From contig VGMT01000005.1 of assembly GCA_016866335.1 (NCBI GenBank), positions 1 through 64,000 on the forward strand: a stretch of DNA of 64,000 bases. Reading direction: 5' to 3'. The position numbers and the translations under genes were made by a program. Positions 33,899-64,000 of this stretch are shown piece after piece. The notes beneath the pieces are model-generated. The model was not told the origin of the DNA and did no database searches. It was given only the letters and a program-made list of their open reading frames with translations. Within the stretch, counting starts at the first letter, position 1. Every line of letters begins with the position of its first letter. This DNA is from Bacteroidota bacterium (GTDB taxonomy: Bacteria; Bacteroidota; Bacteroidia; CAIKAF01).

Positions 33899-34765
33899 AT
33901 GAACTCATTTCAGCGCATTTCAGACGATTACTGGGATCGGATTCTTCGGCCTCGAAGCCCCTGGTGGAAACTCCCTGTACGCGAAATTTGGGAATACCGC
34001 GACCTAATTCTACTGCTGTTCCGCCGCGATTTGATTGCAGTTTATAAGCAAACCGTGCTCGGGCCCATTTGGTTTTTTGTGGGTCCTTTGTTTACGGTAG
34101 CGGTGTACACCTTGGTGTTTGGACGGGTGGCCAAACTGCCCTCCGACGGGCTTCCTCCCCCCTTGTTTTACATGTCGGGCATTTTGCTTTGGTCTTTCTT
34201 CTCCTCAAATTTAACGGCAATTACGGGCAGTTTGGTTCAAAATGCTTCGCTCTTTGGTAAGGTGTACTTTCCTCGTTTGGTTGTGCCGCTCTCCATTTTA
34301 ATGTCAAGTTTGGTAAAATTGGGTATTCAAGCATTGATGCTTCTGCTCTTATTGGGTTATTTTGTGCTGAATACGGATTTTTCCTGGAAGCCAGGACTAT
34401 CGCTGTGCTTGCTGCCTTTTTTGTTGCTCCTTTTGTCTGCAACGGCCTTGGGTTTGGGACTTGTGTTTGCTTCTTTTTCCACCCGCTACCGCGATTTAAA
34501 TCACTTAGTTGGGTTTGGAATGCTCTTGCTTATGTATGCCAGCCCAGTCATTTATCCCGCTTCTTTTGTACCAGCATCGCTTCAGCCGTTTTTTGCCCTA
34601 AACCCCATCGCCCCCATCTTAGAAGCATTCAAATCGGGGCTGTTTGGTCTGCCCTTTTCCCTGTGGACAGGCTTGGCTTACAGCTCTGCCTTTGCCCTGT
34701 TTACTTTGGTTTTAGGATTGATGGCTTTTCAAAGGGTTGAAGGCCGGTTTGTAGATTACATTTAG
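33899..34765 (+). CDS. wzm: ABC-2 type polysaccharide exporter permease (Wzm-like)
   Basis: The membrane half of an ABC exporter that moves undecaprenyl-linked O-antigen or teichoic-acid-like polymers across the inner membrane. In 288 residues: an amphipathic N-terminus (PWWKLPVREIWEYRDLILLL), the signature FRRDLIAVYKQTVLGPIWFFVGP, and six membrane helices including FTVAVYTLVFGRV, IQALMLLLLLGYFV and LSATALGLGLVFASF. The TRYRDL motif and LLMYASPVIYPAS follow. The ATPase gene starts 3 bp after its stop. A second Wzm with the same motifs is at 39599-40423. Confidence 0.93.
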   Translation: MNSFQRISDDYWDRILRPRSPWWKLPVREIWEYRDLILLLFRRDLIAVYKQTVLGPIWFFVGPLFTVAVYTLVFGRVAKLPSDGLPPPLFYMSGILLWSFFSSNLTAITGSLVQNASLFGKVYFPRLVVPLSILMSSLVKLGIQALMLLLLLGYFVLNTDFSWKPGLSLCLLPFLLLLLSATALGLGLVFASFSTRYRDLNHLVGFGMLLLMYASPVIYPASFVPASLQPFFALNPIAPILEAFKSGLFGLPFSLWTGLAYSSAFALFTLVLGLMAFQRVEGRFVDYI

Positions 34766-34768
34766 AGT

Positions 34769-35977
34769 ATGGGCGCCGCGCTGTTTGTCGACAATTTGAG
34801 CAAAGAATACCGCTTGGGTCAACAAAACGCTAGGCGTTGGCTGGGCAATGCCATGCTCTCGGCCAAGCAGAATCCAGAAACCCTTATCAAGGCTTTAGAT
34901 GGTGTGTCTTTCGGTGTTGAACAGGGCGAGGTTTTGGGCATTATGGGCAGAAACGGAGCAGGAAAAAGCACCTTGTTAAAACTCCTTTCCCGTATTACAG
35001 CCCCCAGTTCAGGTCAAATCAAGCAAAAGGGCAGAATGGCCAGTTTGCTTGAGGTGGGCACCGGCTTTCACCCGGATTTAACCGGCCGCGAAAACGTGTT
35101 CCTAAATGGGGCCATACTCGGCATGCGAAAAGCCGAAGTGCGGCAACGGTTGGACGAAATTGTTGACTTTGCAGGCGTCTCAGCCTTTTTAGATACGCCT
35201 GTAAAACGCTATTCTTCAGGCATGTATGTGCGGCTTGCCTTTGCAGTGGCCGCCCACCTTGACCCCGAAATTCTAATCATCGACGAGGTTTTGGCGGTGG
35301 GCGACGCTGAGTTTCAAAAAAAGTGCGTTGATAAAATGAAAAGCGCTTCGGCAGGACAAGGCAAAACCATTTTGTTTGTTTCCCACAACTTGGCTTTTGT
35401 TCAAGCTCTATGCCCCAGAGCCATTTTGCTTGAGAAAGGTCAATTAAAGGCCGATGGACCTACTGCAGATGTTATTCAGCATTACATTCAAGGGGGCCAA
35501 TCTGCTCAGTCCTCGTTGACACGAAAAGGCACCCTGCAGGCGGAATTGCACAGCCGGCAGATGTACAACGAACATGGTCAACCCGCAGCCTTGATTCAAC
35601 AAGGGCAACCCTGTTCCTTTGTGCTGGAGTACCATGCTAAACAGTCTTTGGAACAAGTGGGTGTTGCCCTTGGTTTTAACGACATGGGCGGGCAGCGGAT
35701 CTTATCGGTTTGGTCCGAATTTCAACAGCAACGCTTTTCGTTTAAACCCGGCATGAACACCATACGAATCACCTTGCCCGCCATGAAGCTGATGCCTGCC
35801 AATTACACGTTGATTTCGTACCTTACTTCCAACGGCTTGGTGGTTGAGGAGGTGGAGGATGTTCAACAGCTCCTGGTGGTAGCCCCTGCATTAAAAGAAG
35901 GCTTTGCCGCCCCTTCCTTAAACCAAGGTGTTTTTAACGACGAGGCCACAATTCTACTAGAAACCCCAAATACATGA
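34769..35977 (+). CDS. wzt: Polysaccharide ABC exporter ATPase with C-terminal Wzt domain
   Basis: Energises the Wzm channel encoded just upstream. Walker A GRNGAGKST (residues 60-68), the signature RYSSGMYVRLAF, Walker B ILIIDEVLAVGD and the switch SHNLAF are intact. The 402-residue length includes about 160 C-terminal residues beyond the ATPase (from about 245), with EYHAKQSLEQVGVALGFND and INTIRITLPAMKLMPANYTL-like beta-rich text. This is the Wzt carbohydrate-binding domain, which in known systems recognises the polymer's terminal modification before export. Its stop overlaps the FkbM gene start (ATGA). Confidence 0.93.
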   Translation: MGAALFVDNLSKEYRLGQQNARRWLGNAMLSAKQNPETLIKALDGVSFGVEQGEVLGIMGRNGAGKSTLLKLLSRITAPSSGQIKQKGRMASLLEVGTGFHPDLTGRENVFLNGAILGMRKAEVRQRLDEIVDFAGVSAFLDTPVKRYSSGMYVRLAFAVAAHLDPEILIIDEVLAVGDAEFQKKCVDKMKSASAGQGKTILFVSHNLAFVQALCPRAILLEKGQLKADGPTADVIQHYIQGGQSAQSSLTRKGTLQAELHSRQMYNEHGQPAALIQQGQPCSFVLEYHAKQSLEQVGVALGFNDMGGQRILSVWSEFQQQRFSFKPGMNTIRITLPAMKLMPANYTLISYLTSNGLVVEEVEDVQQLLVVAPALKEGFAAPSLNQGVFNDEATILLETPNT

Positions 35978-39524: not shown

Positions 39525-39598
39525 GTTTTGCCGGCCTTTTTTAACCTGCCCTTTTGTTCCAATACATGGGACTCAAAGGGCGAAGCTGTGCAACACGC

Positions 39599-40423
39599 AT
39601 GTATAAAATAGAACCCCACCCCCCTTGGTATAAGCTCAACCTGAAGGAGCTTTGGACCTACCGCGATTTGATTTTGATTTTTGTGCGCCGGGACATAGTT
39701 GCTATGTACAAGCAAACCATTTTAGGCCCCCTTTGGTTTTTCTTGGCCCCCCTGTTCACGGTCTTAACCTTTACCTTGGTGTTTAACCGCATTGCCGGGC
39801 TTAGCACCGACGGTTTGCCGGCTCCCCTGTTCTACCTGACGGGCACCACCCTTTGGAATTATTTTCAGCAGAGTTTTTTAGGGGCTTCCGGCACCTTTGT
39901 TTCCAATGCCCAACTCTTCGGCAAGGTTTATTTTCCTAGGCTTGCCGCCCCCTTGGCCTTGGTCGTTTCCAACCTGTTTAAGTTCTTTATTCAATTTGGA
40001 ATGCTGATGGTTTTTTGGACCTATTATTGGCAGCAAGGCCTTGTTTCCCCATCAATTAAAATGCTGTATTTGCCCTTGTTTTTGGTCTTGATGGCTATGC
40101 TGGCCTTGGGAGTAGGGCTGTTGGTGTCGTCCCTGACCACCAAGTACCGAGATTTAAGCCATTTTTTGGGTTTTGGGGTTACCTTGCTTATGTACGCCAG
40201 CCCGGTCATCTATTCCATGAATCAGGTGCCGCCTCAATATCAGGTTTTGGTGAATTGGAATCCTCTGGCCCCTGTGCTTGAGGGGTTCCGATATTGCCTG
40301 ACAGGGGCCGGGAAATTGTCTTGGTCCGGGCTGGGATTCAGCACCCTCATCGCCCTGCTCTTGCTAACGTTCGGAGCCTTCATGTTTAACCGGACCGAAA
40401 AAACCTTTATGGATACCGTATGA
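39599..40423 (+). CDS. wzm: ABC-2 type polysaccharide exporter permease, second copy
   Basis: Second Wzm. Seen: LKELWTYRDLILIFVRRDIVAMYKQ... then LGPLWFFLAPLFTVLTF, SNAQLFGKVYFPRLAAPLA, TTKYRDLSHFLGFG and LLMYASPVIYSMN, with six membrane helices. The frame is open from a TTG at 39554. ATG 39566 and ATG 39599 are candidates, and I chose 39599 because MYKIEPHPPWYKLN matches the family's usual start (274 residues). It is clearly homologous to 33899-34765 but well diverged. It is followed, in an ATGA overlap, by only the first codons of an ATPase gene, so its ATPase partner must be encoded elsewhere, most simply at 53880. Confidence 0.9.
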   Translation: MYKIEPHPPWYKLNLKELWTYRDLILIFVRRDIVAMYKQTILGPLWFFLAPLFTVLTFTLVFNRIAGLSTDGLPAPLFYLTGTTLWNYFQQSFLGASGTFVSNAQLFGKVYFPRLAAPLALVVSNLFKFFIQFGMLMVFWTYYWQQGLVSPSIKMLYLPLFLVLMAMLALGVGLLVSSLTTKYRDLSHFLGFGVTLLMYASPVIYSMNQVPPQYQVLVNWNPLAPVLEGFRYCLTGAGKLSWSGLGFSTLIALLLLTFGAFMFNRTEKTFMDTV

Positions 40424-40518
40424 AGCCCGCTTTAAAAATAGAAGGAGTTTCCAAGCAATACCCCTTAGGCAGGGTAGGGGCTTCCAGTTTGAGGGACGAT
40501 GTGCAGCGGCAGTGTTGA
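40420..40518 (+). pseudogene. 5' remnant of a Wzt ATPase gene
   Basis: ATG 40420 overlaps the Wzm stop (ATGA) and opens 32 codons, MKPALKIEGVSKQYPLGRVG followed by ASSLRDDVQ, then TGA at 40516-40518. The N-terminus of the full-length ATPase at 53880 aligns residue for residue (MKPALKISNLSKQYRLGSVG then ESSLKDDVM), but at least a dozen shared amino acids use different codons. This is therefore a diverged homologue, not a recent copy. Everything from before Walker A onwards is missing. The TGA overlaps the TTG start of the aminotransferase gene, so the scrap may now act as a coupled leader ORF. Confidence 0.85.
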
Positions 40519-41597
40519 AAAAAATTAACGTTACCTCCCCATTTCAACCACCAAAGCATGATGTGTTGGCCAAATTAGAACAGATTTTTCAAAAGCGCCA
40601 ATACACCAACCACGGTCCGCTCTACACGGAATTGAACCAGCTTTTGGAATCTAGGTCCTCCTTGCATCATGCCTACGTTTCCAACGGCACCATCTCTCTG
40701 CAATTGCTCTTAAAATCCTTGGGCTGTTCTGGCGAGGTTGTTACCACCCCTTTTTCGTACGTGGCCACCACCAATGCCATTCTTTGGGAAGGCGGCACGC
40801 CCGTTTTCGCGGATGTTGACCCTAAGACCTGCAACGCAGATCCTGAAGCAGTGGAACGGGCAATTGGCCCCAACACCAAAGGCTTGCTATTAACCCATGT
40901 GTATGGAATCCCTTGCGATGTGGAGGCCCTCGAAAAAATAGCCGAAAGGCATGGAATTTGGTTGGTTTTTGATGCCGCCCACGCTTTTGATGTTAAGTTC
41001 AAAGGCAGATCTTTGTATTCCTATGGCACCGCTGCTTCTGCCAGCTACCACGCCACCAAAATTTTCCATACCGTTGAGGGCGGCGGGGTGTATTCCAAAG
41101 ACCAGGAATTAATGAGGGCCGTTCGGCAGGGGATGAACTTTGGACATACCAGCCCAGAAACCTTCGACCGCCCGGGCATTAACGCCAAAAATTCAGAATT
41201 CCATGCGGCCATGGGACTTTGCATTCTTCCCCACATGCCCGATATCATTGCCCGGCGCAAAGCCTTGTCAGAATGCTACGACGCTCAAATTCCTAAGGGG
41301 CTCAGCCGCCCCATTCTGCCCGAGGAAACGGAATACAACTACGCTTACTATCCTGTTTTTTTCCAAAATCAGGACGCATTGTTGCAGACCAAAGCCGCAT
41401 TGGAACAGGCAGGAATTGGCACCCGCCGGTACTTTTACCCCTCTCTAAACACCCTTCCTTATTTAAGCGAAACCCAAGCTTGCCCAGTTTCAGAAGAGCT
41501 CAGCAGCAGGGTGCTTTGCCTCCCCCTGTATCCCGATTTAAGCGTCCTTGAACAGGAATACATTTTAGACCATTTACATCGCAATTTTACGGAATGA
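40515..41597 (+). CDS. DegT/DnrJ/EryC1/StrS sugar aminotransferase
   Basis: A PLP enzyme that aminates a keto-sugar nucleotide. Seen in about 360 residues: VSNGTISLQLLLKSLG, TTPFSYVATTNAILWEGGTPVFADVD, THVYGIPCDVEAL, VFDAAHAFDV, and the Schiff-base lysine in SYHATKIFHTVEGGG. No ATG is available. I chose TTG 40515 (MKKINVTSPF, the family start), which overlaps the remnant's stop as TTGA. GTG 40512 is the alternative. It is coupled (ATGA) to a formyltransferase, so the product is probably an N-formylamino sugar such as a 4-amino-4,6-dideoxyhexose derivative. The dehydratase that supplies the keto-sugar is not in this window. Confidence 0.88.
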   Translation: MKKINVTSPFQPPKHDVLAKLEQIFQKRQYTNHGPLYTELNQLLESRSSLHHAYVSNGTISLQLLLKSLGCSGEVVTTPFSYVATTNAILWEGGTPVFADVDPKTCNADPEAVERAIGPNTKGLLLTHVYGIPCDVEALEKIAERHGIWLVFDAAHAFDVKFKGRSLYSYGTAASASYHATKIFHTVEGGGVYSKDQELMRAVRQGMNFGHTSPETFDRPGINAKNSEFHAAMGLCILPHMPDIIARRKALSECYDAQIPKGLSRPILPEETEYNYAYYPVFFQNQDALLQTKAALEQAGIGTRRYFYPSLNTLPYLSETQACPVSEELSSRVLCLPLYPDLSVLEQEYILDHLHRNFTE

Positions 41598-42322
41598 ATG
41601 CACCTGTTTTATTGGTCCTCACCGACAACCTGCAAATGCTGGGCGAGTTCAGAACCCGTGCGGTACATCACCGACACACCCACTTTCATTATGCCTTTAG
41701 CCCCGAAAACGAGCAAGCCGAAGAGTTCATTCGCAGGGGCTGTTTCCCATTGAACGTGCATAAGGACCTTGAGCAAATTCTGCGCGATTATACCAAGGTG
41801 CTTTCCATCCACAGCAAGCAGGTTTTTCCGGCCAAGCTGGTCAACACCTTGCCCTGCTACAACTTGCATCCCGGCCTTAACCCTTACAACCGAGGCTGGT
41901 CGCCTCAGGTTTTTTCCATTTTAAACAAGCTGCCACTGGGAGCCACCTTGCACGAAATGGTGGAAAAGGTGGATGCGGGCCCCATAATTGATCAGATAGA
42001 GGTTAAGGTGGAGTCTTGGGACACCTCTGAAACCGCCTATGCAAAGGTCATTGCTGCCGAATGTCAATTGCTGGACATCCATTTAGGTTCTATTCTGAAT
42101 TCAAGCTATTCCGCACGTGCGCCCCACAAAAAAGGCAATTTCAACACGCTGTCTAGTTTTCAAGCTTTGATGCCTCTGGATTTGAATGAAACAGCCACCT
42201 TCGGAGCATGCATAGACCGCTTGCGGGCTTTGAGCCACCCACCCTATTGGAATGCCTATTTTATTGATGGAGATGGCCGAAAGGTGTTTGTTCGGGTTGA
42301 GACCTTTGTGGAAGAGGAATAG
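41594..42322 (+). CDS. Sugar N-formyltransferase (dTDP-4-amino-4,6-dideoxyglucose formyltransferase-like)
   Basis: Transfers a formyl group from N10-formyl-tetrahydrofolate to an amino-sugar nucleotide. The 242-residue sequence has NLHPGLNPYNRGWSPQVF and GATLHEMVEKVDAGPII, with the formyltransferase triad at Asn90, His92 and Asp127. The family resemblance is to VioF/FdtF-type enzymes of O-antigen loci. The C-terminal half (NETATFGACIDRLRAL, PPYWNAYFID) is the usual accessory region. It overlaps the aminotransferase stop by four bases, which makes the pair a biosynthetic unit. Confidence 0.88.
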   Translation: MNAPVLLVLTDNLQMLGEFRTRAVHHRHTHFHYAFSPENEQAEEFIRRGCFPLNVHKDLEQILRDYTKVLSIHSKQVFPAKLVNTLPCYNLHPGLNPYNRGWSPQVFSILNKLPLGATLHEMVEKVDAGPIIDQIEVKVESWDTSETAYAKVIAAECQLLDIHLGSILNSSYSARAPHKKGNFNTLSSFQALMPLDLNETATFGACIDRLRALSHPPYWNAYFIDGDGRKVFVRVETFVEEE

Positions 42323-53879: not shown

Positions 53880-55160
53880 ATGAAACCTGCATTAAAAATT
53901 TCTAATCTATCAAAACAATACAGATTGGGGTCAGTTGGGGAATCAAGCTTAAAAGATGATGTGATGCAGCTTTGGGCCAGAATCCAAGGTGCACCCAATC
54001 CCTTTTTAAATAAGGGTGATCGCAACGACCGAAGCATTAGAGGGGAGGATGCATATGTTTGGGCTTTAAAAGACATCAACTTAACTGTTAATCCAGGTGA
54101 AATTTTGGGCCTGATAGGAAAAAACGGCGCAGGAAAAAGTACCCTTTTGAAAATTCTAAGCCGAATTACCGCTCCCAGTACAGGTAAAATTGAAGTCAAT
54201 GGGCGCATGGCATCTTTGCTGGAAGTAGGTACCGGTTTTCACCCTGAATTAACGGGTCGGGAAAACATTTATTTAAATGGGGCAATTTTAGGCATGCGCA
54301 GGACTGAAATCAACCGAAAGTTGGACGAGATTATTGAATTTTCTGGGGTGGAAAGGTACATTGACACTCCCGTAAAACGCTACAGCAGTGGAATGTACGT
54401 TCGTTTGGCTTTTGCCGTGGCAGCCCATTTAGAACCCGAAATTTTGGTGGTTGATGAGGTGTTGGCGGTTGGGGATATCGAATTTCAAAAAAAATGCCTC
54501 CAAAAAATGGATTCGGTTGCATCGGCCCAAGGAAGAACTATTTTGCTGGTAACCCACAACATGCGCGCACTTGCCAGCATTTGCAAAAAGGCAGTTGTAC
54601 TTGAACAAGGTACGATTCGATTTGTTGGCTCAGCTCCTGAAGCCGTTTCAATATATGAAAAATCCAGTATCTCGATACCTCAAAATGCCCTGGCTGAATG
54701 TTATGTTGAAGGACTTTTTCGGGTTTTGGATGTTTCTATTTACAACCTACCCCCAAAACAAGGCTATGCAGGTGTTTTGCTCGACAACGCACCCATACAA
54801 ATTGCGTTGAGGTTCGAACTGCTCGACAGCCGCCCAGAACAGTTTACCCTGATGTTTCATCTCTTGGATGTCAACTCGAATGCCGTGTTTTCTTTTTCGC
54901 CAACCTACTTTGATTCTATGGTGTTTATTCAAGGCCGGCAGGAACTGAAATGCACAATACCTTCAGAGTTTCTAAATTCAGGAACCTACAGTATTCTGCT
55001 TTTGCTTATGAAAAACGAAACAACCCCTCTATTAAGAACGGAAAATCTCCTGTATTTTGATTTGATTCCAGGGGGGCGACCGTTGGGGAAAAACGACATC
55101 GCCCAGCCAGGCCATGTACGGCCTAAATTCGACTGGGATTTAACTGCCGACTTAATCTAA
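53880..55160 (+). CDS. wzt: Polysaccharide ABC exporter ATPase with Wzt domain, orphan copy
   Basis: 426 residues. Walker A GKNGAGKST (residues 80-88), RYSSGMYVRLAFAVAAH, Walker B EILVVDEVLAVGD, THNMRAL switch, then about 170 C-terminal residues (FRVLDVSIYNLPPKQG, LRFELLDSRPEQFTLMFHLL) of the polymer-binding Wzt type. Compared with the copy at 34769 the ATPase core is close, but the N-terminal 70 residues and the C-terminal domain differ, so the two systems probably export different polymers. No Wzm is adjacent. The nearest unpaired one is 39599-40423, whose own ATPase gene is reduced to a scrap that resembles this protein's first 30 residues. Confidence 0.92.
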   Translation: MKPALKISNLSKQYRLGSVGESSLKDDVMQLWARIQGAPNPFLNKGDRNDRSIRGEDAYVWALKDINLTVNPGEILGLIGKNGAGKSTLLKILSRITAPSTGKIEVNGRMASLLEVGTGFHPELTGRENIYLNGAILGMRRTEINRKLDEIIEFSGVERYIDTPVKRYSSGMYVRLAFAVAAHLEPEILVVDEVLAVGDIEFQKKCLQKMDSVASAQGRTILLVTHNMRALASICKKAVVLEQGTIRFVGSAPEAVSIYEKSSISIPQNALAECYVEGLFRVLDVSIYNLPPKQGYAGVLLDNAPIQIALRFELLDSRPEQFTLMFHLLDVNSNAVFSFSPTYFDSMVFIQGRQELKCTIPSEFLNSGTYSILLLLMKNETTPLLRTENLLYFDLIPGGRPLGKNDIAQPGHVRPKFDWDLTADLI

Positions 55161-58946: not shown

Positions 58947-59993
58947 ATGGAATTTGAATTTCGTCTGCCGGTTAATTTTCAACCTGAATGGGCACACCTT
59001 TTCAAAAAAGACGAGCGTTACAAGAGCGTAAATTTAGGTGTAAAGCATCTAAGAAATGCCTTTGTTTCAGAAGAAGGCCACGTAATTAAAAACGGGTTGC
59101 TGGTCCCGGGGTCGGCACCCAACATCGGTTTTTCTAATTACGACACCAGCCATTATTTTGACCATTGGCGCACAGGTTTTGAACAAGCACTGGTAAGTAA
59201 GTTTGGGCGAAGCCTACAGCGCATCAATTTAGATGCTTCTAAACAGTATTTGCTGGTTCATTCGCCCTGGTTCAGCTACTATTTTTGGATTACGGAATGC
59301 TTACCTCGGATTTTAGCGGTGAAAGAAAGGCATTCAGAGCTTCACCTTATTTATCCGGAAGTATGGGATTCCATTCCCTTTGTGGTCGATTCTTTGGAGC
59401 TTTTCCCCGATTTGCGGAGGGAGCGCATTCCCAATCATTTCCACATGAAGGTCCCCAATTTAATTATGCCCGAAGTGAAGCCTTGGACACCGATGTTTAT
59501 ACCCGACCAAGCCCGAGAGGTTCGCGATTTGCTTTTAAACTGGGCAAAAGACACCCCTTCTAAATTTGGCCCCAAAATATACCTATCAAGGGAACGTTCT
59601 GCCCGCAAAAAGTTTAGCAACGAAGACCTTGCCTTTCAGACCTTAAAGGAGCGCGGCTTTTCTTCGGTGTTTTTAGAAGAACTGCCTTTTAAAGAACAAA
59701 TTGCCACCCTTCGTGATGCACAAGAAATGGTAGCCATAACTGGGGCAGGAACCATAAATGCCATGTTTATGCCGCCCGAAGCAACCCTATTTGACATCAC
59801 AAACCAAGATTACCTGCACCGAAAACAATACAAGTTTCATTTTTTCAAAATGTGCAGATTTTTGAACATTCGGTATGCTGTTTTGTTTGCCCAACCCGAA
59901 AGAGATCCCTTGGTTGACCACTACAGCAAGCAGAATCTTACCTTTGACCCTGAGGCTTTTTCGATTATGTATAAACAGGTGAGTCAATTATGA
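58947..59993 (+). CDS. Glycosyltransferase family 61
   Basis: 348 residues. Marks are YLLVHSPWFSYYFWITECLP then RIL (the family's YxHW-TE-LPR region with FW in place of HW), LIMPEVKPWTPMFIP, IYLSRERSARKKFSNEDL and the C-terminal AITGAGTINAMFMPPEATLF. The usual HGAxLTN is GAGTINA here, so one of the conserved residues differs from the copy at 51689. The pseudogene at 55213 is its broken relative. It is coupled to the PIG-L gene (ATGA). Confidence 0.86.
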   Translation: MEFEFRLPVNFQPEWAHLFKKDERYKSVNLGVKHLRNAFVSEEGHVIKNGLLVPGSAPNIGFSNYDTSHYFDHWRTGFEQALVSKFGRSLQRINLDASKQYLLVHSPWFSYYFWITECLPRILAVKERHSELHLIYPEVWDSIPFVVDSLELFPDLRRERIPNHFHMKVPNLIMPEVKPWTPMFIPDQAREVRDLLLNWAKDTPSKFGPKIYLSRERSARKKFSNEDLAFQTLKERGFSSVFLEELPFKEQIATLRDAQEMVAITGAGTINAMFMPPEATLFDITNQDYLHRKQYKFHFFKMCRFLNIRYAVLFAQPERDPLVDHYSKQNLTFDPEAFSIMYKQVSQL

Positions 59994-60628
59994 TATCGTT
60001 ATCTCCAACTCGAATTTTAGTTCTGGCTCCCCATACCGATGATGGGGAATTGGGCTGTGGAGGCAGCATTGCCCGATTGGTTGAAGAGGGGCATGAAGTG
60101 AAGTGCGTTGCTTTTTCCATCGCCGAAGACTCTCTGCCACCGGGCTTTGAGAAGGATGCTCTGGCGCATGAATTTAAACTAGCCATGACGGAGTTGGGGC
60201 TTCAACCAAACAACATTCATTATCACCGTTTTAAGGTTCGGCATTTTCCTGAATTCCGGCAACAAATTCTACAAACTTTGATTGAAATTCGGGGCGAATT
60301 CCGCCCCGATGTAGTTTTTCTGCCCAGTTTGAACGACATTCATCAAGACCATCAGGTTGTTGCCAATGAAGGATTAAGGGCGTTTAAAAAATCTTCCATT
60401 TTGGGCTATGAAATGCCGTGGAACAACATCGTTTTTGAAACGCGCTGCTTTGTGCAACTGCAAGAACGGCATGTGGAAAAAAAAATACGTGCCTTGCGGC
60501 ACTATAAAACCCAACAGCACCGCTCGTATTTAAGCGAAGATTTTATCAGAGGTTTAGCCAAAACCCGCGGCACTCAATTCGAATCAGACTTTGCCGAAGC
60601 TTTTGAGGTAATTCGTTGGATTGTATAA
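59990..60628 (+). CDS. PIG-L/LmbE family deacetylase
   Basis: 212 residues. Zinc-site motif APHTDDGELGCGGSI (the AHPDD-type loop), FLPSLNDIHQDHQVVA (His of the second metal motif), and NPxxHxDH-like spacing. These enzymes remove acetyl groups from GlcNAc-containing or similar substrates. In this locus it probably makes a free amino sugar, which could then be modified. It starts in the stop of the GT61 gene and precedes a GT2 by 33 bp. Confidence 0.9.
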   Translation: MISLSPTRILVLAPHTDDGELGCGGSIARLVEEGHEVKCVAFSIAEDSLPPGFEKDALAHEFKLAMTELGLQPNNIHYHRFKVRHFPEFRQQILQTLIEIRGEFRPDVVFLPSLNDIHQDHQVVANEGLRAFKKSSILGYEMPWNNIVFETRCFVQLQERHVEKKIRALRHYKTQQHRSYLSEDFIRGLAKTRGTQFESDFAEAFEVIRWIV

Positions 60629-60661: not shown

Positions 60662-61618
60662 TTGACTGATACCATTTTGATTCCCGCTCCCACCCAGAAC
60701 GAAAATTTGCCCTTGTTTTCGATTGTCATCCCCATTTACAACCGGGAACATTTGATGGACGAAACCGTACAATCGGTTTGCAATCAAATTTACCCGCACT
60801 GGGAATGCATTTTGGTGGACGACGGTTCAAGCGATGGCAGCTGGAAGGTTATTCAGGATTGGGTCAGCAAAGACGCCCGAATACGGGGTTTGCAGCAAGA
60901 AAATAAGGAACGCTCGGCCGCACGAAATTTCGGAGCCAAGCATGCCCAGGGCGATTGGCTTTGTTTTTTAGACAGCGACGATTGTTATTTACCCGGTTTT
61001 CTTGGCCATCTTGCCGCACAGATTCAATCAAACTCGAATCCTCCGGCCTTGTGGATTTCAGATTTCTTTTTGTGGGACGGGGAACACAGCCGGCCCTCTC
61101 ATGTTCCGCCCCCCACCCAACCTTTGGCCGATTGGATTTGCCGATACCCCGTTACACCTTCGCGCGTTTGCGTTCAAACCACGGCCTTTGCGCACTTCCA
61201 ATTTCGAGAAGACATTGTGATTGTGGAAGACACCGTTTTGTGGGTTCAGCTGCTCAATCGCTTTCGACTGGGATACCTGCCCCAGCCTTTGATGCAGTAT
61301 CGAATCCACGACGGCAATTCTGTTCACAGCTCAAGTCGGGCAGTGTTTAAGCGCTGGCAAGGGCTTAAGGCGTTTTTTAAAACCCCTGAGGCTCGGTTGA
61401 TTTCCCCAAAACTTCGGCGATTTATGTTGGCCGATGTGCTGTTTAAAATGGCAGAATGGGAGGCCAATCAAGGAAACAAATGGACCGCCGCAGGCTACTT
61501 TCTGAGTTCGCTGAGGCAGCAAGCAGCTAATCGGCACACGCCCGCCAGGTTGTTTGGCATGCTTGGATTGATTCCCGGATTTCATCGGTTTTGGACCCTA
61601 GTAAAGGCAAAGAACTAA
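60662..61618 (+). CDS. Glycosyltransferase family 2
   Basis: 318 residues from TTG 60662: FSIVIPIYNREHLMDETVQS, ILVDDGSSDGSWKVI, ERSAARNFGAKHAQGDWLCF then LDSDDC, and EDIVIVEDTVLWVQLLNRF. No ATG gives a complete first strand, so a TTG start is likely. The C-terminus (AGYFLSSLRQQAANRHTPAR) is amphipathic. The stop TAA shares its last base with the ATG of the giant fusion gene. Confidence 0.9.
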   Translation: MTDTILIPAPTQNENLPLFSIVIPIYNREHLMDETVQSVCNQIYPHWECILVDDGSSDGSWKVIQDWVSKDARIRGLQQENKERSAARNFGAKHAQGDWLCFLDSDDCYLPGFLGHLAAQIQSNSNPPALWISDFFLWDGEHSRPSHVPPPTQPLADWICRYPVTPSRVCVQTTAFAHFQFREDIVIVEDTVLWVQLLNRFRLGYLPQPLMQYRIHDGNSVHSSSRAVFKRWQGLKAFFKTPEARLISPKLRRFMLADVLFKMAEWEANQGNKWTAAGYFLSSLRQQAANRHTPARLFGMLGLIPGFHRFWTLVKAKN

Positions 61619-64000
61619 TGGCAAAACGCTTGGCGGTTTTTGTAGAAGACTATCCCTATTCCACGGGCGAGCCTTTTTTTCATGCCGAGTTGAAGGAGCT
61701 GATTCCTCAATTCGATGAAATACGGGTGGTTTGCAAGCATGCTGTGACCCGCCGAAAATCTCCCCCCGATTTTGCATTGCCGGCGGGGGTAGAACTTATT
61801 GAACTAAAATCGCTTGCAAGCACCTGGTCAAAAGTGCTTAGTCTGGTTTGGGTTTTGGTTTCGGGCCGCTGGTTTTCCATAATCAAGGATCTACGCAGAA
61901 CGAAAACGCCCCTAAATGTGTACACCCTTAAGGTGGCTTTGGCCTACATGGAGTCGGCGGCGCGCATGGAAAGGGAATTGGCCCAAGCGTGGAAAGGGCC
62001 CCTGAAAGGCTGGGTTTGGTACAGCTACTGGTGCGACGATGCCGCTTATTTGTTGGCCCAATGGCAAAAAAAAGGCAAGATTGACCGCAGTTTTTGTAGG
62101 GTGCACAACACAGATGTGTACATGGAAAGGCATCCTTTTTCCTATTTGCCTTTCCGAAAATTTATTCATGAACAACTGAGCGGAATCTTGGCCATTTCAG
62201 AACATGCCCGCCGCTACCTTTGGGTTCAAACGCCCAGGGCTTCTTCCCGCATTTTGCTGAGTCGATTGGGTGTCCCCAGCCAAGTAGCCATTCCGGCGGC
62301 CAATGGCCATCCTTTTCGGCTGCTTTCTCTGTCAAATATATCTCCGGTGAAAAACCTGGAGGGATTGATGCTGGCTCTCTCCCAATGGGATGGCCCAGAC
62401 ATGGAATGGCATCATTTCGGCTCGGCCTCCAATGCCCAATACGGGATCGAAATCCAGCAAAAGATGCAGGATTTGGCTATAGCCAATCCGCGAATACAGG
62501 TTCATGCCCATGGTTTTGTTCCCCCCGCTGAAATGATGCAGCGCATTCGGGCCTTGCAGCCCCATGCCCTAATCAATACCAGTTTTTTCGAAGGGATTCC
62601 CGTAAGCATGATGGAGGGGAGTTCTTTGGGGATTCCTGTTTTGGGCCCAGAAATCTGCGGAGTTCCTGAACTGGTACTCGATGGGGTTTCTGGATTTTTA
62701 TTGAATCCAAATCAGCCCGAATCCATACTCCAAGCGCTAAAAAGGCTGCTGGCTCTGAATGCAGCAGATTACAAAGCCCTGCGCAAGGGCAGTTGGCAGA
62801 CACAACGCAGAATCTTTCAGGACCGTTCAAATTTCAGGCAACTGGTTTCGCAATTGAAGGGAGAAGAAGCCCCACAGAGTGTGTTTGAAGGAGCGTCGGC
62901 AGATGTTGGGGTTTTGTCGGTAGGCACAGGAAATGTCGGGGTTTGGCTGGATTTTTTTCAAGCCGAAGGCATCAAGGCTATGCCTGTTTCAGAACCCAGC
63001 CAAATTCAGGGATGCAAGGGGTTGGTTTTGCCGGGGGTCGGGCACTTTGACGCGGCCATGCGCCGGCTAAACGAGCCCGAATTCCGAAAAGCCTTAGAAG
63101 GGCATTTCCAGGCAAACAAACCGGTTTTGGGCGTTTGCTTGGGTATGCAATGCCTTATGCAAGGCAGCGAGGAGGGGCAAGAGCCGGGATTGGGCTGGAT
63201 TCCCGGCAAGGTCATTTCCCTGAAAAGCCAGGCGGAAAAGCAAGGCGAACCTTGGCCCCATGTGGGTTGGAAGGCGGTTGTTTCGGCTCAGGGTACGGAC
63301 CTGGGCAGGTTCTATTTTACGCATGGATATGCCTGCGCACCAAATGAAGCGGATAGCATAAGCCATACGGCAGCTTTAGGCGCAGATCGGCTGGTGGTTG
63401 GGCTTCGAAAAGGACAGGTTTGGGGATTTCAATTTCATCCTGAAAAAAGCCATGGCCGTGGTCGGGTTTTGCTTCGGGAATGGCTTCGGGAAGCTGGGTT
63501 TTCGGTCAGGCCCGAACCGGCACCAATTGCCCCAACTACAAAAGAAGCCCCCAAAATCGATTCCCGCACCCTCTTTCTTCTGGTTCGGGATTTCCCTTTT
63601 GGAGTGTGTGAACCCTATTTGGCCGCCGAACTGCACGTTTTGGCTCCCCGTTTCCAAAAGGTGGTTTTGCTGGCCTACCATCCAGGGCCCCGTTCCGAGC
63701 GGCCCCTGTTTGAGCTCCCACCCAACGTAGAAACCATAGATGTGTCGTCGGGTATGCGTTTGCCCAACAAAGTAAAGGCCGTATTGAAGTCGGGTTTGCC
63801 CCACCGATTGGGGCGTTTGCTTGGGGATCATCCCGGGCCACATTGGCTGGGCTTAAAAACAGCATTGGCCTACGAAGCCATGGCTTCTACTTTGCAAGGC
63901 AATGTGATGCGGGTTCTAGAGGAAAGAGGGCTGGATGCACGAATGGGAATTTGGTATGCCTATTGGACCGACCATGCCGCCTACCTATTGGCTCTTTGGA
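61618..64000 (+). CDS. Tripartite fusion: GT4 - HisH glutamine amidotransferase - GT4 (cut by window edge)
   Basis: One frame, ATG 61618 to the edge, 794 residues with no stop. Residues 1-415 are a complete GT4 (VFVEDYPYSTGEPFFHAEL, SNISPVKNLEGLMLAL, NTSFFEGIPVSMMEGSSLGI, VPELVLDGVSGFLL). Residues 429-628 are a HisH-type glutamine amidotransferase (VLPGVGHFDAAM, GVCLGMQ with Cys507, YFTHGYA, FQFHPEKSHGRGR with His607 and Glu609). A proline-rich linker follows (about 629-645). From 646 a second GT4 begins (LFLLVRDFPFGVCEPYLAAEL) whose WYAYWTDHAAYLLALW repeats the first GT4's WYSYWCDDAAYLLAQW, 645 residues later. HisH makes ammonia from glutamine, normally for HisF. The fusion suggests a sugar-amidating role. 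The gene starts on the stop of the GT2 before it. Confidence 0.85.
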   Translation, partial: MAKRLAVFVEDYPYSTGEPFFHAELKELIPQFDEIRVVCKHAVTRRKSPPDFALPAGVELIELKSLASTWSKVLSLVWVLVSGRWFSIIKDLRRTKTPLNVYTLKVALAYMESAARMERELAQAWKGPLKGWVWYSYWCDDAAYLLAQWQKKGKIDRSFCRVHNTDVYMERHPFSYLPFRKFIHEQLSGILAISEHARRYLWVQTPRASSRILLSRLGVPSQVAIPAANGHPFRLLSLSNISPVKNLEGLMLALSQWDGPDMEWHHFGSASNAQYGIEIQQKMQDLAIANPRIQVHAHGFVPPAEMMQRIRALQPHALINTSFFEGIPVSMMEGSSLGIPVLGPEICGVPELVLDGVSGFLLNPNQPESILQALKRLLALNAADYKALRKGSWQTQRRIFQDRSNFRQLVSQLKGEEAPQSVFEGASADVGVLSVGTGNVGVWLDFFQAEGIKAMPVSEPSQIQGCKGLVLPGVGHFDAAMRRLNEPEFRKALEGHFQANKPVLGVCLGMQCLMQGSEEGQEPGLGWIPGKVISLKSQAEKQGEPWPHVGWKAVVSAQGTDLGRFYFTHGYACAPNEADSISHTAALGADRLVVGLRKGQVWGFQFHPEKSHGRGRVLLREWLREAGFSVRPEPAPIAPTTKEAPKIDSRTLFLLVRDFPFGVCEPYLAAELHVLAPRFQKVVLLAYHPGPRSERPLFELPPNVETIDVSSGMRLPNKVKAVLKSGLPHRLGRLLGDHPGPHWLGLKTALAYEAMASTLQGNVMRVLEERGLDARMGIWYAYWTDHAAYLLALW

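Follow-up and report, generated by a model that had tools for sequence, protein, structure and literature searches.

A HisH2-type glutaminase domain fused to GT4 glycosyltransferases in a freshwater Bacteroidota group and its predicted role in sugar amidation

Why should a glutaminase of the type known from histidine biosynthesis lie in the middle of a glycosyltransferase? The question was raised by a 64,000-nucleotide stretch of DNA (hereafter the window), which comprises positions 1–64,000 of contig VGMT01000005.1 (C5; 113,961 bases) in the draft genome of a Bacteroidota bacterium of the CAIKAF01 lineage (GCA_016866335.1; 2.45 Mb, 62 contigs, 99% complete; designated G000). An earlier note on the window had described a frame opening at ATG 61618 that held, in order, a glycosyltransferase of family 4 (GT4), a HisH-like domain, and the beginning of a second GT4. 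Translation bore this out: 794 stop-free codons led to the window edge, and reading of the contig past that edge placed the end of the gene at 64803, giving a product of 1061 amino acids.

The order of the parts was confirmed by domain searches. Pfam recognized two Glycos_transf_1 domains with a class-I glutamine amidotransferase between them. With NCBIfam, residues 430–623 matched the HisH model TIGR01855, which does not separate HisH from HisH2, with 150.1 bits against a cut-off of 105.4. The HisH part also matched HisH of T. maritima (1gpw_B; E 1.5e-27). The proposed triad of Cys507, His607, and Glu609 aligned with the catalytic triad of canonical HisH, and the PGVG and HPEKS stretches, as well as the oxyanion strand, were retained in the alignment. 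The divergent forms GTGN, THGY, and GWK, to which the note had drawn attention, proved to be substitutions outside the triad. Both GT4 copies, rightly called homologous, shared 38% identity and carried the E-x7-E signature, the second copy being judged by its sequence only.

An AlphaFold model of residues 1–632 (79 related rows), covering the first GT4 and HisH, had a mean predicted local distance difference test score (pLDDT) of 92.4. Residues 1–417 formed a GT-B fold that matched GT4 enzymes (BshA and others; Z ~32), and residues 428–627 formed a HisH fold (7ac8_F, Z 27.7, root-mean-square deviation 1.9 Å over 192 residues). The ratio of non-synonymous to synonymous substitution rates (dN/dS) between G000 and its relative G001 was 0.15, 0.08, and 0.14 in the three domains, compared with 0.44 and 0.37 in the two linkers, which indicates purifying selection on all three domains. 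The fused protein consists of a GT4, a HisH-type glutaminase with an intact triad, and a second GT4.

The genes downstream provide the context of the glutaminase. As the note had anticipated, hisF- and wbpG-like genes, here HisF2 and WbuX, were found past position 64,000. The start codon of the fused gene overlaps the stop codon of a GT2 gene (TAATG), its own stop overlaps the start of HisF2 (ATGA), and WbuX begins 8 bases past HisF2; because of the overlaps at both ends, the fused gene lies within a tightly packed gene run. HisF2 has Gly in place of the catalytic Asp11 known from histidine-pathway HisF (CLDIK to VLGIL in the alignment), and the residues at R5/E46/K99/E167-type positions, which line the ammonia gate (T. 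maritima HisF numbering), are retained. WbuX matched TIGR03573 with 253.3 bits (cut-off 203.2), and its translation contains SGGTDS (PP-loop) and CSSC...CSIC. A search of solved structures with WbuX gave no match at E 0.001, although LpNASAT (8WEX) exists; thus, WbuX is weakly similar in sequence to LpNASAT. Passages of PMC10607449 describe LpNASAT as having an available crystal structure and a little-known function.

The distribution of the fusion was followed in 60 relatives, in a class-wide set of 395 genomes, and in a phylum-wide draw of 395. Among the relatives, only the genus of G000 had long frames that enclosed a strong HisH match. Two further species had frames of 1080 and 1118 residues, and another two had frames of 664 residues; the DNA fetched for these loci gave GT4-HisH-GT4 in three species (G000, G001, and G003) and GT4-HisH in two (G002 and G005). 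In a sixth species of the genus, the contig breaks within the first GT4. HisF2 and WbuX follow directly downstream of the fusion in every genus member whose genes are complete (5/5). The GT4-HisH part of the four other members was 91, 64, 40, and 39% identical to the one described here. The class-wide set added one GT4-HisH fusion, followed by HisF2, in another family (G136), and the phylum-wide draw revealed no additional fusion of a glycosyltransferase to HisH. In these five other genomes, which come from separate assemblies, the frame is kept; the note had named a split between the domains as one of the results that would undo its proposal. The GT4-HisH(-GT4) fusion is a feature of an uncultured freshwater Bacteroidota group.

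Unfused genes in the same order were found as well. In G056, GT4, HisH, HisF2, and WbuX are four consecutive separate genes; in G087, GT4 directly precedes HisH, whose ATG comes right after the GT4 stop; and the phylum-wide draw yielded separate GT4, HisH, HisF2, and WbuX genes in that order in the remote lineage G426. In the HisH tree, with 12 histidine-operon HisH sequences as a reference (clade support 100/99), the fused HisH domains formed one clade (99/89) inside HisH2, apart from the reference, in accordance with the suspected HisH2 affinity. The clade was sister to HisH2 of the G056 operon (99/91), and the GT4 tree gave the same relation with weaker support (81/88). Since both trees point to the G056 operon, the fusion most likely arose once, by loss of a stop codon in a GT4-HisH-HisF2-WbuX operon. 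From its presence in two separate families, we infer transfer, or loss elsewhere. The C-terminal GT4s formed one clade beside the N-terminal GT4s. The glycosyltransferase encoded downstream of WbuX is double (861–880 amino acids) in the three GT4-HisH-GT4 species and comprises 430–431 amino acids in the two others, which suggests that the second GT4 and the doubled enzyme lengthened the glycan jointly.

The same GT4 subfamily was also found joined to another subunit of the amidating module. In ten genomes, namely seven of the class-wide survey and the metagenome-assembled genome (MAG) records L034, L038, and L039, it is fused to WbuX; in the three MAG records, HisH2 and HisF2 are separate genes neighbouring the GT4-WbuX fusion. 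Elsewhere, the GT4 gene adjoins separate WbuX, HisH2, and HisF2 genes. Strong GT4 matches were fused to, or lay within ~6 kb of, at least one module gene in 22/38 genomes. Across the 395 genomes of the class-wide set, WbuX co-occurred with GT4 in 30/38 genomes versus 112/357 without it (Fisher p 1.5e-8, with no correction for kinship among the genomes, which are not independent). On the GT4 tree, the WbuX fusions had at least two origins (two or three), distinct from the clade of HisH fusions. The strongest argument that the GT4 and the module parts work together is that two seams join one GT4 subfamily to two subunits. As far as gene arrangement can tell, the GT4-amidination link is general.

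We consider it fairly probable that the fused gene encodes a glycosyltransferase carrying the glutaminase subunit of an N-acyl-sugar amidating system, with GT4 transferring that sugar. In such a system, the HisH domain would hydrolyse glutamine and release ammonia; HisF2 would dock on HisH and conduct the ammonia through its barrel without the histidine reaction; and WbuX would activate the N-acyl group of the sugar with ATP and add the ammonia, producing an amidino (acetamidino-type) group. The tethered GT4 would then transfer the amidated sugar onto a growing O-antigen-like polysaccharide, which would leave the cell through ABC transporters encoded in the locus. In the three species with a second GT4 of the same subfamily behind HisH, this copy and the doubled downstream enzyme would probably serve for further sugars of a longer repeat. 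The roles of HisH, HisF2, and WbuX are assigned because of the known acetamidino-sugar system, in which those of HisH2 and HisF2 are general knowledge; for WbpG and WbuX, we followed passages of PMC10607449. Use of the amidated sugar by GT4 is proposed because of the GT4 fusions. The parts and the pathway are well supported; the complex with HisF2 and WbuX, the use of the amidated sugar by GT4, the order of steps, and the identity of the sugar are inferred.

Several observations weigh against this reading. HisF2 scored below the cut-offs of both curated families, NF038364 (243.6 bits, E 1.9e-72; cut-off 310) and TIGR03572 (198.2 bits; cut-off 299.7), and by these scores it is a diverged relative of them, still adjoining WbuX. 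The AlphaFold model of the full 1061 amino acids, made with five sequences, had a pLDDT of 56.8 and was too poor for placement of the domains. In addition, no module gene was seen near GT4 in 16/38 genomes, some of them on short contigs; thus, the subfamily is not always tied to amidination.

The note had proposed that the protein may couple ammonia release to sugar transfer or tie two consecutive transfers to an amidating step. A tie between transferase and amidating step fits the GT4-WbuX fusions and neighbours. Since HisF2 and WbuX are made as separate proteins from the genes downstream, they are the most likely recipients of the ammonia, and the link of GT4 is most likely with the amidated sugar and not with ammonia. 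Tentatively, the coupling may go further, with HisF2 and WbuX docking on HisH so that ammonia, amidated sugar, and transfer pass along one complex; the WbuX-fused GT4s would then be the same machine with another seam, and the cell would at no time contain free amidino sugar nucleotide.

Instead of any such coupling, the fusion may be a plain consequence of stop-codon loss in an operon, fixing the expression ratio with neither channelling nor a link between amidation and transfer. The separate adjacent genes in the same order in G056, G087, and G426, the G087 HisH start directly after the GT4 stop, and the variable sequence of the linkers agree with this explanation. Chance stop loss is, however, disfavoured by the independent fusion of the same GT4 subfamily to WbuX, and the HisH fusion persists down to ~40% identity; we regard this explanation as rather unlikely. 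Less probable still is amidation after transfer, in which GT4 would add the N-acyl sugar to a lipid-linked glycan and HisH, HisF2, and WbuX would amidate it in place. PMC10607449 places formation of the group on the O-chain or the O-unit's first sugar, and the fusion could keep a glycan close to the amidating enzyme no less well than a nucleotide sugar. The observations fit either order; against amidation after transfer, no membrane or glycan-binding domain was recognized in WbuX with Pfam or NCBIfam.

A function of the HisH domain in histidine biosynthesis is very improbable, as is a dead domain kept for structure, although the domain scores above the cut-off of the histidine HisH model and has several unusual residues around the triad. 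No gene for histidinol dehydrogenase (hisD) was found in the 99% complete genome, and a histidine role was rejected because of this absence together with the placement of the domain within HisH2; the conserved triad and a dN/dS of 0.08–0.16 speak against inactivity. The only other strong HisH of the genome, on contig C38, lies beside another WbuX and HisF2. Because hisD is missing, HisF2 lacks Asp11, and the C38 copy has these neighbours, the HisH/HisF copies of the genome do not function in histidine synthesis, and the organism is probably auxotrophic for histidine and retains its two HisH/HisF pairs to amidate sugars. The C38 locus (G000:C38:909-3400; L111) is a second WbuX-HisH-HisF2 set of separate genes; its HisH had a very long branch in the tree, and a model made from the other WbuX sequences gave its WbuX a low score.

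An assembly or binning artefact, conceivable for a draft genome of 62 contigs, was rejected because the same frame occurs in other assemblies, two of which, made separately, share the three-domain architecture at 91% and 64% identity, and because the two-domain form lies on a 1.57 Mb contig.

Among known systems, WbpG/HisH2/HisF2 of P. aeruginosa O5 and WbuX/WbuY/WbuZ of E. coli O145 likewise have adjacent genes for the glutaminase, HisF2, and amidotransferase within a polysaccharide locus. In those systems, HisH is a small protein of its own, whereas here it forms the middle of a 1061-amino acid glycosyltransferase. With imidazole glycerol phosphate (IGP) synthase (HisH-HisF), which in eukaryotes is fused as HIS7, the protein shares the HisH fold, the triad, a neighbouring HisF relative, and the gate residues. 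It differs in that its HisH falls on the HisH2 side and is fused to glycosyltransferases rather than to HisF, and in that its HisF2 lacks Asp11 and its genome lacks hisD. The GT4-WbuX fusions and the loci with GT4 beside the module in other Bacteroidota have the same GT4 subfamily and the same amidating module, but the fused partner is WbuX instead of HisH, or there is no fusion, and they have no second GT4. The Wbp/Vim linking-sugar pathway of bacteria with type IX secretion, described in passages of PMC7468200 as including the VimF glycosyltransferase, a deacetylase, a GNAT-like transferase, and an amidotransferase, is likewise a polysaccharide route of Bacteroidota, and the GNAT and CE4-type deacetylase near the fusion in G002 and G005 recall it, as a resemblance only. 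Its WbpS is of the asparagine-synthase type, forming a uronamide from a carboxylate, and the pathway is without HisH, HisF, and WbuX parts.

A survey of his genes in Bacteroidota reported extra hisH2/hisF2 pairs in three strains (PMC8305728); the fusions named in the passages retrieved from it are hisIE, hisNB, and hisHF/HIS7, with none of hisH to a glycosyltransferase. In the passages of open-access literature retrieved, no description of a GT-HisH or GT-HisH-GT protein was found, which is not proof of novelty. The chemistry appears to be of a known kind, and the fusion architecture and the GT4 link appear to be new.

The fusions and the neighbourhood tie one GT4 subfamily to acetamidino-type sugars, making transferases of such sugars predictable in Bacteroidota. 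They also suggest that the making and attaching of a positively charged amidine sugar occur in one complex. The fusion makes it testable whether WbpG-type enzymes act on the sugar nucleotide or on the lipid-linked glycan, and whether ammonia supply is physically coupled to sugar transfer; the covalent seam is a handle for capturing the complex.

Table 1. Features of the fused gene, its neighbours, and the surrounding polysaccharide locus (window and contig numbering coincide).
Feature	Position	Strand	Basis or remark
Fused gene GT4-HisH-GT4	61618..64000, on to contig 64803	+	Translation, domain searches
First GT4 domain, residues 3-413	61624..62856	+	GT-B fold, E325-x7-E333 motif
Linker 1, ~residues 414-427	62857..62898	+	Variable; low pLDDT at 422-425
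HisH2-type glutaminase domain, residues 428-627	62899..63498	+	Domain search, tree, structure match
HisH triad codons	Cys507 63136-63138, His607 63436-63438, Glu609 63442-63444	+	
Linker 2, ~residues 628-649	63499..63564	+	Pro-rich in this species, variable
Second GT4 domain	63565..64000, on to contig 64800	+	EGVPVSLME motif in C-terminal half
GT2 glycosyltransferase, directly upstream of fused gene	60662..61618	+	Start/stop overlap
HisF2	contig 64800-65528	+	Best match NF038364
WbuX/WbpG-type amidotransferase	contig 65537-66640	+	TIGR03573
Double glycosyltransferase	contig 66637-69222 (L004:6637-9222)	+	
PIG-L/BshB1-like de-N-acetylase, same gene run as fusion	59990..60628	+	
DegT-type sugar aminotransferase, same polysaccharide locus	40512..41597	+	
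dTDP-4-amino-4,6-dideoxyglucose N-formyltransferase	41594..42322	+	NF005755, above cut-off here

The remaining genes bear on the candidate sugar. The pair of aminotransferase and N-formyltransferase (window 40512-42322), present in the locus of all five genus members, is predicted to serve a 4-formamido-4,6-dideoxy sugar and need not supply the amidated one. The pair also raises the possibility of an N-formyl group as the target of amidation. In G002 and G005, a WecE-type aminotransferase, a GNAT, and a CE4-type polysaccharide deacetylase stand beside the fusion; at L024:11046-12979, the GNAT and deacetylase recall vimA/vimE, again as a resemblance. A nonulosonate or WbpI/FnlC route tied to the locus was rejected: the NeuB homologues lie on other contigs than the fusion locus, and the one gene of the UDP-N-acetylglucosamine 2-epimerase type is on another contig. 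Two ABC-2 permeases and two Wzt-type ATPases (window 33899-35977, 39554-40423, and 53880-55160) possibly represent two export systems in the locus.

Other N-terminal partners of WbuX were observed in further Bacteroidota. They included a GT2 (L109), an asparagine-synthase-type enzyme (L103), a hexapeptide-repeat protein (L106), part of a GT4 (L110), and unrecognised regions of ~300-370 amino acids (L102, L104, and L107); L105 and L108 were also among these loci. Two MAG contigs titled Chryseobacterium gleum (L031 and L038) carried quite different versions of the module, and the titles may be unreliable.

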